Shown: positions 22,536-40,984 of the stretch, piece by piece
Layout: each line of letters opens with the position of its first letter
Numbering within the stretch: position 1 is the stretch's first letter
DNA from: a virus
Reading direction: 5' to 3' (one strand)
IMG/VR virus record: IMGVR_UViG_3300023220_000415
Coordinates: 1-44,412 of that record
DNA: 44,412 nt
Translations under genes and position numbers: made by a program
Notes under the pieces: generated by a model
Told to the model about the DNA's origin: nothing
What the model saw: only the letters and a program-made list of their open reading frames with translations
Databases searched by the model: none

Positions 22536-23288
22536 ATGAAAAACATTTTTACAGTATTAATATTAGCGTTCTCAATATCGGGTCATGCCGAACCAATAAC
22601 ACAAAAACCTATTTTAATTGGTGCCGGTGGATCTCTAGTGACGATCAGGAGTCCTTTATCGTTTTCTACTAACTCAGGTAGTTACTTACCTTTAGAGGGT
22701 GCTCTATACCGAAAAGGTTTTTTAGTGACTAGTGAAGCCGTTGGTGGTTCGGCTACATTTGGTTATACAACCTGCTTGTTTGGTCCATGTGTCCACTTCG
22801 ATAGTTATCAAGAGCAATTCGACAAAGGATTGGGGAAAATATTCAGTCCTGTGACGCTAGACTTCAATGCTGATTATGTCATATTCGCAATAGCTAACGA
22901 TTGCGTACATAGTTTAATTTATCCGGTTGGATCATCGCCTTGTGTAACAGCTGATTATAATCAAATGGTTGATACCCTAGTGAGTGTTGGTCAACAAGCT
23001 TGTGCATTAGGTCTTACACCGATCTATGATGAATATATGGAATACGGTGAATTAAATATTGGTGGTTTTCTTGCATTCGGTGCTGTATGGGTAATTGATG
23101 AAGCCGGTTGGAATGAGATGGCGACTATTCACCGCACTAGAATTCTTCAAGAGGTTTCTTGTGCGTTACAGGTTGATATTTGGGATAATTTCAATGATTT
23201 AGGTGATGGTATTCATCCAGATGAAACCACATCAAAGAAAGCAGCCAAGGCAATAAAAACGGCTATCGCTGAATTCGAAGCTCTATAA
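22536..23288 (+). CDS. Secreted SGNH/GDSL-type hydrolase
   Basis: 250 residues. A Sec signal peptide (MKNIFTVLILAFSISGHA, cut before Glu19) is followed by the four SGNH blocks: GAGGSL (Ser33), EAVGGSA (Gly70/71), FAIANDC (Asn121) and LGDGIHPD (Asp224, His227). The nucleophile block reads GGS rather than GDS. The family includes esterases, lipases and acetyl-hydrolases. After export the enzyme would act in the periplasm or outside, for example on O-acetyl groups of surface glycans or on peptidoglycan. It has its own AGGAAA site. A hairpin ends the gene. Function beyond hydrolase is inferred. Confidence 0.8.
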   Translation: MKNIFTVLILAFSISGHAEPITQKPILIGAGGSLVTIRSPLSFSTNSGSYLPLEGALYRKGFLVTSEAVGGSATFGYTTCLFGPCVHFDSYQEQFDKGLGKIFSPVTLDFNADYVIFAIANDCVHSLIYPVGSSPCVTADYNQMVDTLVSVGQQACALGLTPIYDEYMEYGELNIGGFLAFGAVWVIDEAGWNEMATIHRTRILQEVSCALQVDIWDNFNDLGDGIHPDETTSKKAAKAIKTAIAEFEAL

Positions 23289-27987: not shown

Positions 27988-28160
27988 TGGCTAGAATACA
28001 TATACCGTTAATGAAACCTGTTCCAGAAAACGCTACTGTAGAAGATAGAAGAAAAATGTTTGAAGAACATAAAGCGAAATTAATAAAACTCAATCCATCC
28101 TGCTTTAATACCGATGGAACTGTCAAAACAATATGGCAACGATTAACAGGATTATTTTGA
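27987..28160 (+). CDS. Small protein, unknown
   Basis: 57 residues from ATG 27987 (TGATG overlap with the HNH stop), with GGAG eight bases upstream. Reads as a short strand (RIHIPLMKPVP) then a helix VEDRRKMFEEHKAKLIKL and a short basic end. Frame continues upstream to 27957, but the later ATG fits better. No family recognised. Confidence 0.55.
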   Translation: MARIHIPLMKPVPENATVEDRRKMFEEHKAKLIKLNPSCFNTDGTVKTIWQRLTGLF

Positions 28161-28318
28161 TGAGTAAATATCTATTAATTTTATTACTGTTGATTGGATG
28201 CACAGAAAGACAAAAATTCATAATGGAACATTGTAAGAAAAGCACTGATACAACTTGGTACGCCTATCGACCTTCTCAGCACACAGTATATGATTGCACA
28301 GGTATAGACTTATCGTGA
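28160..28318 (+). CDS. Small lipoprotein, spanin candidate
   Basis: 52 residues from ATG 28160. Begins MSKYLLILLLLIGC, a short n-region, hydrophobic core and lipobox Leu-Leu-Ile-Gly-Cys at residue 14. The mature part is about 39 residues with two more Cys and a YRPSQHTVYDCTG end. Position near the amidase makes an outer-membrane spanin subunit (Rz1-like) possible, but the usual Pro-rich content is missing and no inner-membrane partner is seen. Overlaps the next gene by 4 nt. Confidence 0.65.
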   Translation: MSKYLLILLLLIGCTERQKFIMEHCKKSTDTTWYAYRPSQHTVYDCTGIDLS

Positions 28319-34840: not shown

Positions 34841-36304
34841 ATGACTGCTAGTAGCGTTATTCAAGCGAGAAAATTAGAGTGTGAATTAGATCCGCTGTAT
34901 TTCGATCGCTATTTTTTTAAGCAAAGATTCGGCTCTAAAATGATTGTAGCACCACATCATGAGGTGATGGGTGATGTGCGCCAACGTGTGCTCAATGGTG
35001 AAATCAAACGGTTAATCATTAACGTACCACCTCGATATACCAAGACAGAGTTCTGGTCTATTGGATTACCGGCGTTAGGATTAGCGATAAACCCTCAATC
35101 GCGGTTCTTACACCTTAGTTATTCGCAAAAACTAGCATTGAAAAATAGTGCCGATGCGCGTGCCATAGTTAGATCGAAAGATTATCAAGATATGTGGCCC
35201 ATGACGACGCGTGAGGATACCAACAGCAAAGAGATATGGTTTACAGATAAAGGTGGTGGTGTAGTCGCAGCACCCGCAGGCGGTCAGGTAACAGGTTTCG
35301 GTGCAGGGTTAATGATTCCGGAAGGTCAAGGATATCAGTTTACCGGTGCATTAGGATTAGATGATCCGGTCAAACCGGCTGACGCTTATAGTGAAACGAT
35401 CCGTAAAGGTGTCAACGATCAATACAACGAAACCATAGCATCACGTATTGCCCATGAAGATGTACCCATTATCATCGTAATGCAGCGCATACATTATGAT
35501 GATTTAAGTGGGTACCTTCTGCGTGGCGGTAGTGGTGAAGAATGGCACCATTTAAATCTACCGGTGATTATTGATAGTAAACAACGGTATCCGGAAGAAA
35601 ATACCCATGGCATACCGATAGAACACGGATTACCTGATGGGTGGTTATGGCCTTATAAGCATAGTGAAAAGCATCGTGTAGCATTGATGGCCCATAAGCG
35701 TCGTTGGTGGGGCCAATACATGCAGGCTCCCAAGAAATTCGATGAAGAAGGTGCTTTGTGGACTGAAAAGATGATTGCTGCTGCTATTTCCATGAAACAA
35801 CCCTGGAAACTAAAGCGTACAGTGGTTGGTTTAGATCCGGCTGTATCAAACGAAGAAGATAGCGACGAAACTGGAATAGTTGTTGCCAGTTCCTACACTG
35901 ATGATAACTTTAGCGTTGATGGTGATTATACTTGCAAAGAATCAACTAATAGTTGGGCATTACGTGCTATCAGAGTTTACGAACATCATGATGCTGATGC
36001 CATAGTCGTAGAGGTTAATCAAGGTGGTGATTTATGCGAAGATGTATTACGTAAGAATGGTTTCACCGGTCGAATCATTAAAGTCCATGCTAGTAAAGGT
36101 AAATATGCGCGTGCTGAACCCATAGCCGCATTATATGAAATGGGTAGAGTAAAACATGGTCCAGGCTTAGGTGATTTAGAATCTGAGATTATGAGCTATG
36201 TACCGTTTAGCGTTAAGAAGTCACCTAACAGGTTAGACGCTCAAGTATGGGCATTACATGAATTGAGTGAACATGAAAACGTAGCAGGGGCATTTGGACG
36301 ATGA
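34841..36304 (+). CDS. Terminase large subunit
   Basis: 487 residues. Walker A-like NVPPRYTKT (residues 61-69), Walker B LGLDDP (about 171-176), then the RNase H-like nuclease domain with VVGLDPA (about 328-334), VEVNQGGD (about 390) and LDAQVWAL (about 465). These are the ATPase motor and the DNA-cutting acidic residues. Packages DNA into the prohead through the portal. Start ATG 34841 has no strong ribosome site. The 44-nt gap before it holds GAGGA farther upstream. Overlaps the portal ATG by 4 nt. Confidence 0.95.
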   Translation: MTASSVIQARKLECELDPLYFDRYFFKQRFGSKMIVAPHHEVMGDVRQRVLNGEIKRLIINVPPRYTKTEFWSIGLPALGLAINPQSRFLHLSYSQKLALKNSADARAIVRSKDYQDMWPMTTREDTNSKEIWFTDKGGGVVAAPAGGQVTGFGAGLMIPEGQGYQFTGALGLDDPVKPADAYSETIRKGVNDQYNETIASRIAHEDVPIIIVMQRIHYDDLSGYLLRGGSGEEWHHLNLPVIIDSKQRYPEENTHGIPIEHGLPDGWLWPYKHSEKHRVALMAHKRRWWGQYMQAPKKFDEEGALWTEKMIAAAISMKQPWKLKRTVVGLDPAVSNEEDSDETGIVVASSYTDDNFSVDGDYTCKESTNSWALRAIRVYEHHDADAIVVEVNQGGDLCEDVLRKNGFTGRIIKVHASKGKYARAEPIAALYEMGRVKHGPGLGDLESEIMSYVPFSVKKSPNRLDAQVWALHELSEHENVAGAFGR

Positions 36305-37653
36305 AGAATAACGTTGTTGAAATTACACAGGAGGATAGGAAGCGCGGTAATATAATAAACGCGCTTGCCAGTACTCTAAGGAGAACATTCGGTGCTGCAT
36401 TATTTGGCGAATCACCCGATGGTAAACGAAACTATAAACAGATTTTTGGATACCTTGACGATCCTTCTTACGCTGACTATCGCGGCATGTATCGCCGTGG
36501 TGGTATTGCTCATACTGTTGTCGCTAAGATTGCAAAGGCGTGTTGGCGGAACCTTCCTATACTAAAAGAAGGTGACAACGAAATTTTAAAAGATATGGTT
36601 AATGATCTGCATGAAGCTGGATTTTTCAAAGCATTTGAGCGTGCAGATATATTAAATCGTATTGGTAGGCTGTCGGTATTATTTATCGGTATTCAAGATG
36701 GTTTGGATTTCGATCAACCATTGGGAACAGGTGGTTCATTAGAGGATATTTATTTCCGGGTGTACGGTGAAGACGGTATTGAAATATCTAAATTTGATAC
36801 AGACCCAATGAGTATTCGATTTGGCTTACCTATCGTTTATCAGCTGACAGTTACCAATTTAACGAACTCCAAAGGCAAAACAGCAGGTGCCAGAACCGTT
36901 AATGTTCATTATACGCGTGTTGTCGTATTGGCTGAGGGTCTATTAGAAAACGATATCGAAGGTTCATCAGCACTTGAGCCGGTGTGGGATGCTCTTATCG
37001 ATAAAGATAAGGTCAGAGGTTCGGCTGCAGAGAGTTATTATCGAAATGCCCGACAGAAATTTGTATTAGAAGCTGCAGAAGGTTCAAAAATCGATACATC
37101 CCCAGAAGGGGTTGCTTCGCTGAATGCAGAGGTGCAAGAATTTACCAATGATTATCGGGATTTCATGCGCATTAAGGATATGAAGGCCAATGTTATTCAG
37201 CCTAATATGATTGACCCAAGAGGAGCATTTGATATTGCAGTGGAGGAAATATCGGGGCAAACAGGTATCCCCATCAGAGTATTAACCGGTAAGGGTGGTG
37301 GTCAATTAGCTGGTAGTGAAGATAAAGCAGCATGGAACGCGTTGATACTGGACAGAGAAAATCAAGAATGTACAACCTGGTTATTGGTTGGGTTAAGAAT
37401 TTTAGAAGCTGCTACTATAATCGATGAATTACCGAAAACATTAATTGTTGAATGGCCTGAACAATCAGCGTTAACTGAAAAAGAAAAGTCCGAAGTTAAC
37501 AAAAACAAAGCAACATCATTGAAAGACTTATCAGCAGCACGCAGTCTACCCGGTGGCGATGAAATTGTTTTAGAAAGTGCATTGGATGAATTAGATTTAG
37601 GTAATATCGAAACCGAAGAAATAACCGACAGAGGGGAACCAGAAGATGAGTAA
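36301..37653 (+). CDS. Portal protein (DUF1073-like)
   Basis: 450 residues. Begins with helices then YLDDPSYADYRGMYRRGGIA and HTVVAKIAKACWRNLPIL, the entry pattern of DUF1073-type portals. The middle is strand-rich (SIRFGLPIVYQLTV, NVHYTRVVVLAEGLLEND), then IPIRVLTGKGGGQLAGSEDK near the wing/stem border and a helical crown ending acidic. Forms the 12-mer DNA channel. Follows the terminase and precedes head genes, as expected. Confidence 0.9.
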   Translation: MKNNVVEITQEDRKRGNIINALASTLRRTFGAALFGESPDGKRNYKQIFGYLDDPSYADYRGMYRRGGIAHTVVAKIAKACWRNLPILKEGDNEILKDMVNDLHEAGFFKAFERADILNRIGRLSVLFIGIQDGLDFDQPLGTGGSLEDIYFRVYGEDGIEISKFDTDPMSIRFGLPIVYQLTVTNLTNSKGKTAGARTVNVHYTRVVVLAEGLLENDIEGSSALEPVWDALIDKDKVRGSAAESYYRNARQKFVLEAAEGSKIDTSPEGVASLNAEVQEFTNDYRDFMRIKDMKANVIQPNMIDPRGAFDIAVEEISGQTGIPIRVLTGKGGGQLAGSEDKAAWNALILDRENQECTTWLLVGLRILEAATIIDELPKTLIVEWPEQSALTEKEKSEVNKNKATSLKDLSAARSLPGGDEIVLESALDELDLGNIETEEITDRGEPEDE

Positions 37654-38032
37654 CGTAGCAGAAAAGGAATTAACATTAAGTGCAGGTGCAGGTACTCTTA
37701 TTTTTGATGTGGGTACCGGTCCAGATAAATTAGTTTCAAATATTCCTCATAACTTTTTTGATTTTGTTTCTTTAGATGGTGCCGGTGGTAGTCCTGTTGA
37801 ACCCGGTGCAGGAACATATACGACTTACATTGAGCGAGTACCTAATGGTGGGTTTCAAGCTATACCTAATGGTGGTACGATTGACGCTACTAAAACAGGT
37901 GGCACAACTACCGCTGACGGTACCGTATTAAGTGGATCGTTCGGCAGTCCTATCAATAGAATCAAAATGGTTGCTACCGGTATTACAACAGCAACACATG
38001 TGAAGATGATAATTCAACAACAACTAACGTAA
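37646..38032 (+). CDS. Small beta-rich virion protein, unknown
   Basis: 128 residues. Thr/Gly/Val-rich with strands (AGTLIFDVGTGPDKL, NRIKMVATGITTATHVKMII). No signal peptide and no Cys. It overlaps the portal by 8 nt and precedes two exported fibre-like genes, so may belong to the same fibre or decoration set. No family recognised. Confidence 0.6.
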   Translation: MSNVAEKELTLSAGAGTLIFDVGTGPDKLVSNIPHNFFDFVSLDGAGGSPVEPGAGTYTTYIERVPNGGFQAIPNGGTIDATKTGGTTTADGTVLSGSFGSPINRIKMVATGITTATHVKMIIQQQLT

Positions 38033-38039
38033 GGCAATA

Positions 38040-38393
38040 ATGATGAAAAAAATATTATTAACATTACTGCTATTATTCAGTGGTTTTACTAATGCCGCTA
38101 TCGGTCCCGCATATGGTACTACTACCATTGTTGGTGGTTTTGTTGGTGGGCTTGAAATCACAGGCGTTGATGTTTCTGCATCTCCTCAAACAGTAACTAT
38201 TAGTAGTGCTGATATAGCTATCGAAGAAAAAGCATTTATCATTAAAGATGAAAGTGGTAATGCCGGTATAAATACAATCACCATAGATACACAAGGATCA
38301 GAACTTATCGATGGTGTATCAAGTGTAACAATTATTGTTAATTATGGTGCTATAAAATTATATTCACGAGACGGAGCGTTATTCTCATGGTGA
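38040..38393 (+). CDS. Fibre-like protein with Sec signal peptide
   Basis: 117 residues. N-terminus MMKKILLTLLLLFSGFTNA is a textbook signal peptide, with cleavage likely after TNA (residue 19). The mature part reads ITGVDVSASPQTVTISSADI ... EKAFIIKDESGNAGI ... IIVNYGAIKLYSRDGALFSW, a short beta domain common at the base or end of phage fibres. Starts 7 nt after the previous stop. Its end overlaps the next gene by 7 nt. Export is an inference from the N-terminus. A hydrophobic anchor helix is the alternative. Confidence 0.7.
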   Translation: MMKKILLTLLLLFSGFTNAAIGPAYGTTTIVGGFVGGLEITGVDVSASPQTVTISSADIAIEEKAFIIKDESGNAGINTITIDTQGSELIDGVSSVTIIVNYGAIKLYSRDGALFSW

Positions 38394-40063
38394 TCAATAT
38401 GAAAAAAAGAATAGCTTTAATTACATGTCTATTGTCGTTTTTCCTAGCAGATCTTGTATTAGCCACAAGTTCAACAACAAACATAACTACTCGTCTTACT
38501 ACTGCATTACCAAGTACCACTGTGCAAGTATTCTCCCTTGCTGATTTCCCGGTACCAATTGCCGGTGTCATTACTCTCAATGCAGGTGAGGCGTATCAAA
38601 TTATCGATGCTGTTGATATTGGTACAAACAGAATTATAGCTATGGGTAATTCTGTTTTTGGTGTCGATCCTTTTAATGATTCGTTAACTTCTAGTAATAC
38701 AGGTGATTGTTTTACAGGTGTTGACGCTTCGATGCTAATACAAAATATGACATTTAACTGTGCCAATGGTAGAGCGTTTAATTTTAAAAATACAGCAGGT
38801 AGCGAAAAAACATCTATATTTAGCGCTGAAGGTATATTAATTATCACGAAAGATGTTGGTATTTTCGAAAATCTTTCTGCTGTAGGTTTTTTTGACGGTG
38901 GATCATTTGGTACCGTAGATAGCGGTATAACTTTTGCGGGATCTCAGAATGGAGGGTTTGCGACTAGATTTTGGGATACTAGTAATGTTAACGGATCAGG
39001 AGCTCTTTTCGATTTTGGTACAGCTGTATTTGAAGATATTACAATCACGAATACAGAATTTGTTCCGACTGCAACAAGTGTATTCATAAAAGGCGCTGTC
39101 GGAAATGCAAATCTGATTAGTGGTTCCAGAGCTATAGTTGTAAATAATCCAATAAAAGGTGGTCTTACACCAAACTTAAGCGGTGTTTCCACTACCGATT
39201 CTGGCTGGTTTTTCTTTGATAATAATGGTCTTGCGGATAGTGTAGGTGGTGGCGATGGTATTTATTCAGGAAATGGAACTATTCCAACTTCTACTGTTGC
39301 CACTATAACCGATACTTTTACATTGAATGGAGGAAAAGTAGGTATTGGTATTACGCCAAATCAAGGCACATTACAAATTAAACAAAATTCAGATAATTCA
39401 GTTGGCGGTATTACTCTTGAAGATTTGGGTGGTGTAGATATTTTAAGAATTTACCATGATGGAAATAATCTCCACGTTGAAAATGCTGGCAATGCAAATC
39501 AATTGTTACTCGGCAGCAATGGAAATGTAGGTATGGGAGTAGCTATTCCTGATACATCGACAATTCTTGACCTTGTATCGACCACTCGTGGTTTTGGAAT
39601 CATGGGTATGACGAATGCTCAAATATTAGCAATTACTTCTCCTAAGCCTGGATTAACAGTCTATAGTACTGATGATAATTTTAATTATCAATATGATTCT
39701 AGTCGCTCAAAATGGCTTTCATCTGATACAACAACCTATCAATTTGGTAGTAATGGTTCCACGGATAACACCGAATTGAACTTTAACTCAACGCAAAATT
39801 CAACATCTGGTGTATTGACCCCAAGAAATGGTACTGTAATTAGTGTGACTGGTATGCAGAATAGTGGGAATACAACTAAAGGTTTTGAGGTTAGATCAAA
39901 TGGTATAAATATATTTGCCTATACACTAGTGGCTAGTGAATTTATAAGTAATACAGTTGATGCTGACTTTACTGCTGCCGATATGATACATGTATTTTCT
40001 ATTGCTACAGGATCAGCTGCAAGTAATCCAACTGCTACTGTAACTGTTAAATGGAGATTGTAA
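38387..40063 (+). CDS. Large fibre / beta-helix protein with Sec signal peptide
   Basis: 558 residues from ATG 38387 (GGAG ten bases upstream). ATG 38399 is a second option. The N-terminus KKRIALITCLLSFFLADLVLA is a signal peptide with cut after VLA. The body is strand-rich with turn repeats (SMLIQNMTFNCANGRAFNFK, FEDITITNTEFVPTATS). The C-terminal half has NGGKVGIGITPNQGTLQIKQ and SNGNVGMGVAIPDTSTILDL, the GxVGIG pattern of fibre proteins, and a final beta domain ending ATVTVKWRL. No membrane segment besides the signal. Translation is coupled to the upstream gene. Confidence 0.75.
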   Translation: MVINMKKRIALITCLLSFFLADLVLATSSTTNITTRLTTALPSTTVQVFSLADFPVPIAGVITLNAGEAYQIIDAVDIGTNRIIAMGNSVFGVDPFNDSLTSSNTGDCFTGVDASMLIQNMTFNCANGRAFNFKNTAGSEKTSIFSAEGILIITKDVGIFENLSAVGFFDGGSFGTVDSGITFAGSQNGGFATRFWDTSNVNGSGALFDFGTAVFEDITITNTEFVPTATSVFIKGAVGNANLISGSRAIVVNNPIKGGLTPNLSGVSTTDSGWFFFDNNGLADSVGGGDGIYSGNGTIPTSTVATITDTFTLNGGKVGIGITPNQGTLQIKQNSDNSVGGITLEDLGGVDILRIYHDGNNLHVENAGNANQLLLGSNGNVGMGVAIPDTSTILDLVSTTRGFGIMGMTNAQILAITSPKPGLTVYSTDDNFNYQYDSSRSKWLSSDTTTYQFGSNGSTDNTELNFNSTQNSTSGVLTPRNGTVISVTGMQNSGNTTKGFEVRSNGINIFAYTLVASEFISNTVDADFTAADMIHVFSIATGSAASNPTATVTVKWRL

Positions 40064-40075
40064 GGCAAATAATAA

Positions 40076-40984
40076 ATGGGGACTTTAATAAACGATCCAA
40101 CACAAACGCGTGGTATAGAACGTCGCTGGGAACGTGATATCAACCGGCGATGGGCTAAGTTTACGCGTGATATTTTAGTTCCCCTCGATAACAACCTACA
40201 GTTAAATGCGCTTGAGGCGGATCCGGCCCAGATTAGAATTTATATGGGTTTTCTTCAACAGCAGATTGATTCAATTTTATTAGGTACCCTACAACCACCG
40301 AACTGGCAAGCGCAATATCAACTTGAAGCCTATAAGCGTGCTATCGTTCGCTCGAGACAAGAACTACGGCGTCAAGGTGCCAATATAGCGTTAACGGTTG
40401 AAGAGCTGCAGCAAGCCGAATTATTGACACCAGGTGATTTCAGCAGTACGCCTTCATTAATCAGTAGTGCCGGTACAGCGATACAAGCACCCATACATCA
40501 GGAATCATTAGAGTTTCTATTCACTCGTTCCTATGATTCCCTGAAAGGTCATACTGATAAGATGTCGAGGGAAGTAAGACAAATTCTTGTCGATGGTGTT
40601 CGTCAAGGAACTGGTGTAAAAGAAATCAGTTCACAGATCGCAGCTCGAGTTGGTGTATCGAAGTCGGGGGCGATATTAATAGCACAAACCGAAGTTACCG
40701 GTGCATATCGTATTGGGCAAATCAATCAGGCTGATATCGCTTCTGAAGAACTTGACGAACCTGTTAATGTACGATGGTTGACCCGACGTGACGGTAAGGT
40801 AAGAGATTTACATGCTAACTGGCATGGTCAGATATTTACACCAGAACAGGCAGATATTAATAATAGTATCTCACCATTCCGGTGTCGTTGTAGTTTGAGT
40901 CCGGTGATAGAAGAAGCTGATACGCCGGTAGTACAGGAAAAGTTTGACAAGCAACGTAAAACATTGTTAGCGCTGGAAACATAG
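40076..40984 (+). CDS. Head morphogenesis protein (Mu F / SPP1 gp7-like)
   Basis: 302 residues. The central region is helical, with VGVSKSGAILIAQTEVTGAYR. The C-terminal RWLTRRDGKVRDLHANWHG and SPFRCRCSLSPVIEE carry the family mark (Trp-x-Thr/Leu ... Asp-x-Val-Arg ... His-x5-Gly ... Pro-Phe-x-Cys-x-Cys). Minor head protein that is attached to the portal and often injected with the DNA. Followed by a promoter for the capsid genes. Confidence 0.88.
   Translation: MGTLINDPTQTRGIERRWERDINRRWAKFTRDILVPLDNNLQLNALEADPAQIRIYMGFLQQQIDSILLGTLQPPNWQAQYQLEAYKRAIVRSRQELRRQGANIALTVEELQQAELLTPGDFSSTPSLISSAGTAIQAPIHQESLEFLFTRSYDSLKGHTDKMSREVRQILVDGVRQGTGVKEISSQIAARVGVSKSGAILIAQTEVTGAYRIGQINQADIASEELDEPVNVRWLTRRDGKVRDLHANWHGQIFTPEQADINNSISPFRCRCSLSPVIEEADTPVVQEKFDKQRKTLLALET

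Follow-up and report, generated by a model that had tools for sequence, protein, structure and literature searches.

Organization of the head operon

The window (the whole stretch of DNA analysed, an IMG/VR virus record 44,412 bases long) has a gammaproteobacterial look because its terminase is ~61% identical to the terminases of Cronobacter, Pseudomonas and Klebsiella phages. Its head operon encodes, in order, the terminase, the portal, a 128-aa protein, protein 1, protein 2, a Mu F-like protein, a 435-aa protein, a decoration protein and a coat-type protein. All features described below lie on the plus strand. The portal gene (36301..37653; PHROG 146, PF06381) is followed by the gene for the 128-aa protein (37646..38032), an ORF whose product has neither a signal nor a family match in profile searches. 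Next come the genes for protein 1 (P0005, 117 aa; 38040..38393) and protein 2 (P0004, 558 aa; 38387..40063) and the gene for the Mu F-like head morphogenesis protein (40076..40984; PF04233, PHROG 758). The ORFs of proteins 1 and 2 share 7 nt (ATGGTGA), a GGAG lies 10 nt upstream of the protein 2 ATG at 38387, and an AAGG lies 5 nt upstream of the protein 1 ATG at 38040. The GGAG site and the overlap (38373..38393) suggest that the two genes are translationally coupled. Each of them is intact, and the packing is tight.

In ENT47670, ES18, Vibrio NF and the viral contig L006 (46% identity to the window in the Mu F protein), the portal gene directly adjoins the Mu F gene and the three intervening genes are missing. 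Thus, the three window genes constitute an insertion relative to these genomes. The GC3 of the insert genes is 0.18-0.23 compared with 0.31-0.34 in the portal and Mu F genes, although values almost as low occur in some other tail genes. Promoter and terminator counts were at the level of shuffled sequence. A search for PF00589 integrases in the window, which may be an incomplete contig, gave no match, and this makes a lysogenic-conversion gene a less favoured candidate. The contig seems to be opened within head-tail connector genes (44258 and 217), so it is possible that the window represents a circularly permuted genome that is close to complete.

Domain structure of proteins 1 and 2

Protein 1 consists of a signal peptide and a small beta domain (residues 41-113; 38160..38378). 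In a profile search this domain matched PHROG 20556 ("baseplate protein") at 3.7e-9, and it is also homologous to haloarchaeal virus baseplate proteins. A PDB sequence search with protein 1 returned no match; its predicted structure, which is of low confidence, resembles parts of the KP1 baseplate, T4 gp9 and gp10 with weak E-values. Together, the profile match and the model support a gp9/gp10-like baseplate domain as the body of protein 1.

Protein 2 comprises a signal peptide, a beta-helix domain with a DFPxPxxGVITL entry motif (residues 44-291; 38516..39259), a spacer with a Bacteroidota-type motif and a C-terminal beta domain (residues 450-558; 39734..40060). It has no direct match in PHROGs or Pfam and none in a PDB sequence search. 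The beta-helix is modelled with a block-mean pLDDT of about 84-97 over residues 41-280. The top PDB matches of the fold are to phage tailspike (TSP2), with C1q/TNF-like knobs lower down, all at weak E-values, whereas a search of predicted viral proteins (BFVD) gave a match at 8e-17. By homology over the beta-helix and by its modelled fold, protein 2 can be placed in a phage beta-helix fibre family. Its C-terminal end may form a C1q/TNF-like trimer knob, a low-confidence assignment suggested by the model and the structure search.

Sec signals

Signal peptides were called by a simple rule used instead of SignalP (a positive n-region, an 8-residue apolar core and small residues at -3/-1), which recovered the PhoA, OmpA and MalE signals used as controls. 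Both N-termini satisfied these Sec/SPase I-type criteria. The signal of protein 1 (38040..38096) is MMKKILLTLLLLFSGFTNA followed by AIGP, with the cut after FTNA, and that of protein 2 (38387..38464) is MVINMKKRIALITCLLSFFLADLVLA followed by TSST, with the cut after LVLA; residues 9-24 of protein 2 form a helix in the model. Neither protein has a lipobox with Cys at +1 in its sequence, and neither carries an outer-membrane or lipoprotein signal, leaving plain Sec signals only. Inspection by eye revealed no downstream start in either gene that is preceded by a ribosome site and would bypass the signal. The sequence features therefore make export of proteins 1 and 2 a well-supported prediction. 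The initial annotation had described two translationally coupled genes whose products have Sec signals with TNA and VLA cut sites and fibre-type beta domains, and had placed the pair between portal and Mu F. Both ORFs lie at the coordinates given there, and the signals and fibre-type bodies are supported by the present analysis. The placement holds, but the 128-aa gene also lies between the portal gene and the pair.

Of 799 ORFs from viral loci, the rule was positive for 21 (2.6%), and some of these 21 are probably spurious ORFs. The chance of two signals in this particular pair is ~7e-4 under independence, but it rises to ~4% for some adjacent pair among the 65 genes of such a genome, which is not negligible and counts against the exported-pair reading. 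The signal count alone is thus only moderately unlikely, suggestive rather than conclusive, and more weight falls on the recurrence of signals among related proteins. Two artefacts were considered. A mis-called start is unlikely for the window and for L117 and L119, two signal-bearing viral relatives of protein 1 with good ribosome sites. A chance hydrophobic start keeps some plausibility but is weakened by the recurrence in related proteins. In protein 2, C108 is unique among 47 homologues, which mostly have M or L at this apolar position, while C125 is common (38708-38761); a C108-C125 disulfide in an oxidising periplasm is conceivable from the sequence. Cysteine enrichment in exported homologues showed no clear difference.

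Homologues and exchange of the N-terminus

Single-protein scans of viral contigs with protein 2 and with the portal gave no matches, and alignment queries were used instead; the first for protein 2 yielded 32 viral and 14 bacterial loci and the second 59 viral loci. Among 56 distinct 5'-complete viral homologues (window included), only the window protein and L033 bear a signal. The other 54 have different, cytoplasmic starts, some of which are recognisable virion-attachment ends. The start types include AIHKDL..ELHEPKG, a KISEL type and NIGAAANDRTGDTWR..NFxELF, the last of which, in L014, matches T4_gp9_10_N (PF07880) at 1.1e-7. These starts are labelled virion-type partly by inference, many of them being without a known family. 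The window proteins have no recognisable virion-attachment N-terminus, and a signal stands in its place. The initial annotation held that a lack of the signal segment in homologues would speak against export. The lack is literally true of 54 of the 56, but these carry a different start, which argues for a swap and not an artefact.

L033 is encoded in a 79.9-kb phage (G001) with portal, terminase and other head genes. L035, the sister of L033 at 49% identity (support 100/99), starts in the same way as L014. The phage of L033 has many more small genes with Sec-like N-termini (L107-L110). In a 60-row tree the signal label changes three times (window, L033 and a Bacteroidota clade), and at least two of the changes are forced by well-supported branches. 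This comparison of sequences indicates that signal and attachment end were exchanged more than once. The window beta-helix falls with the viral rows, apart from the Bacteroidota clade, with weak support near the window, whose long branch makes its exact placement unsure; a bacterial origin of the beta-helix domain was rejected on this grouping. The Bacteroidota relatives of protein 2 bear signals, and one lies in an ordinary chromosomal context. A record titled Glaciecola (CP034120.1, L044) encodes a Fluviicola-type protein despite the gammaproteobacterial name, reflecting either a transfer or a mislabelled genome.

Other signal-bearing phage proteins

Among the 19 viral relatives of protein 1, two (L117 and L119) carry signals. 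In L119 the signal directly precedes AKISELPALTTV; L067 and others begin with this start type and have no signal before it. The L119 gene lies downstream of a major head protein gene and upstream of genes for a tail-type protein and a reverse transcriptase; this arrangement (L119:3566-6873) resembles a diversity-generating retroelement. The L117 contig is myophage-like (Baseplate_J and a Mu-type portal) and has four close signal-bearing genes, flanked by a fibre-like gene on one side and lysis-type genes on the other (L117:1041-4556); two of the four have lipobox-like ends. The isolate Tenacibaculum phage Larrie encodes a signal-bearing protein related to the N-terminal part of L033, to which alone it is tied; it is not homologous to protein 2. 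Both domain types of the pair are fused in single proteins in L062/L084 and in a secreted bacterial protein (L053), suggesting that proteins 1 and 2 probably work together.

The exported cassette of L117, with its two lipoprotein-like products, and the position of L119 beside a reverse transcriptase would fit a general class in which many phages exchange the attachment end of spare virion fibre bodies for a Sec or lipoprotein signal, the products serving to divert phages or block receptors both in the envelope and once the cell has lysed. This generalization is tentative and, at present, rather doubtful. The arrangement in the window is itself real and unusual, and it is part of a recurrent pattern. 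No description of an exported fibre of a tailed phage was found in the searchable literature, which covered few subscription papers, and the recurrent pattern appears to be undescribed in searchable papers.

Two further window ORFs have export-type N-termini. A 250-aa protein (22536-23288) has its own Sec signal (MKNIFTVLILAFSISGHA followed by EPIT) and, by eye, the SGNH-hydrolase-like motifs GGS, AND and DGIHPDE; it has no match in Pfam, PHROGs, NCBIfam, the PDB, viral contigs or phage records. On these motifs it is possibly a glycan esterase and a third exported protein of the window phage. A 61-aa ORF (28133-28318) has a lipobox-like sequence (MSKYLLILLLLIGC followed by TERQ) and perhaps encodes an outer spanin.

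Proposed function and alternatives

The reading favoured here, which we regard as about evenly poised, is that the pair are exported fibres, made late, that fill the periplasm, are freed at lysis and probably occupy receptors, serving either superinfection exclusion or as a decoy against debris. The pair would be expressed late along with the head operon, and both precursors would pass SecYEG and have their signals cut. The mature proteins would form fibre-like oligomers in the periplasm, with protein 1 as adaptor and protein 2 as shaft and knob, and these would stay there until set free at lysis. The released pair would bind the surface glycan or receptor normally bound by such fibres. Receptors on the infected envelope, debris and neighbours would then be occupied, keeping rivals out and preventing progeny from becoming stuck to debris; receptor occupation is a function that we infer for the pair. 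A Sec signal alone, with no outer-membrane or lipoprotein signal, implies that the proteins should remain periplasmic until lysis. The earlier proposal that the pair coats the infected cell is therefore less favoured than action within the periplasm or liberation upon lysis, and surface display before lysis is doubtful since no outer-membrane route is visible.

The initial annotation had weighed export against a virion fibre anchored by its hydrophobic N-terminus. The signals favour export, and the quite different N-termini of the homologues weaken the anchored reading. In its broader form, in which the hydrophobic N-terminus is kept and inserted in the virion or fibres folded in the periplasm join virions at lysis, this explanation is unlikely, though it is the strongest of the competitors. 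It draws on the position of the pair in the head operon, on most phage relatives being virion-type proteins, and on Shewanella phage SppYZU01 gp09, a collagen-like protein without a signal that occupies the same portal-protease slot and shows that signal-less fibre-like proteins are also found at this site. However, both N-termini resemble cleavable signals, with short apolar cores and small -3/-1 residues; the searchable literature offered no precedent; and capsid assembly is cytoplasmic.

Somewhat less probable is that the pair acts only within the infected cell's periplasm, where it would obstruct a receptor or the entry path from below in the manner of T5 Llp, which acts from the periplasm. 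Plain Sec signals would suit such a role, as would C108, which might form a disulfide with C125 if the compartment is oxidising, but jamming does not need large fibre-type bodies, and Llp is a small lipoprotein whereas the pair has no lipobox. It is improbable that the pair was recently acquired from a bacterial gene for a secreted adhesin, with export as a relic and no phage function. Signal-bearing relatives do occur on Bacteroidota chromosomes and the GC3 of the pair is low (0.18-0.21) against portal and Mu F, yet the GC3 of some other tail genes, which is nearly as low, the viral grouping of the beta-helix (weakly supported near the window), the intact state and tight packing of both genes and the recurrence of the swap in other phages all argue against it.

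The swap, which recurs in unrelated phages, suggests that the fibres of some phages are destined for the envelope of the host or its surroundings rather than for the virus particle. If the exported reading is correct, phage fibres are more than virion parts, and a swapped N-terminus redirects binding bodies to the host envelope or medium. A fibre body with a signal would then be a readable sequence mark by which metagenomes could be searched for decoys and receptor blockers of phage origin, and it would offer a simple way to test how lytic phages shut out rivals and escape being lost on debris. It would also caution that a fibre-like gene does not necessarily encode a virion protein just because it lies in a structural operon.

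Comparison with known systems

Among the nearest parallels are the superinfection-exclusion lipoproteins T5 Llp and Cor which, like the window pair in the reading proposed here, are phage-made, exported and meant to change phage adsorption. T5 Llp blocks a receptor and prevents both reinfection and non-productive adsorption to fragments of lysed cells (PMC9586334). Llp is a small lipoprotein, whereas the window pair has no lipobox, has large fibre-type bodies and lies in a head operon (PMC9586334). PblA and PblB of Streptococcus phage SM1 are virion parts that, once lysis has occurred, also attach to the cell wall in free form (PMC3675006). The parallel lies in phage tail proteins with an additional activity at cell surfaces, away from the virion, but in the window pair the attachment ends are replaced by signals. 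Baseplate domains of the T4 gp9/gp10 type (PHROG 20556, PF07880) resemble the body of protein 1, and their N-domain is found in some homologues of protein 2; this N-domain is absent from the window proteins, which have a signal instead. Proteins of Zobellviridae Vibrio phages (1.077.O gp18 and 1.034.O gp16) and phrog_16509 share the beta-helix and head-gene neighbourhood of protein 2, but they begin with the AIHKDL..ELHEPKG-type start and have no signal. Secreted beta-helix proteins of Bacteroidota (Fluviicola and Aequorivita) share with protein 2 a signal, a beta-helix, a C-terminal beta domain and an LDxxSTxxGF..PxxGLxVY motif, but they are encoded in bacterial genomes, form a separate clade and carry the motif before the helix.
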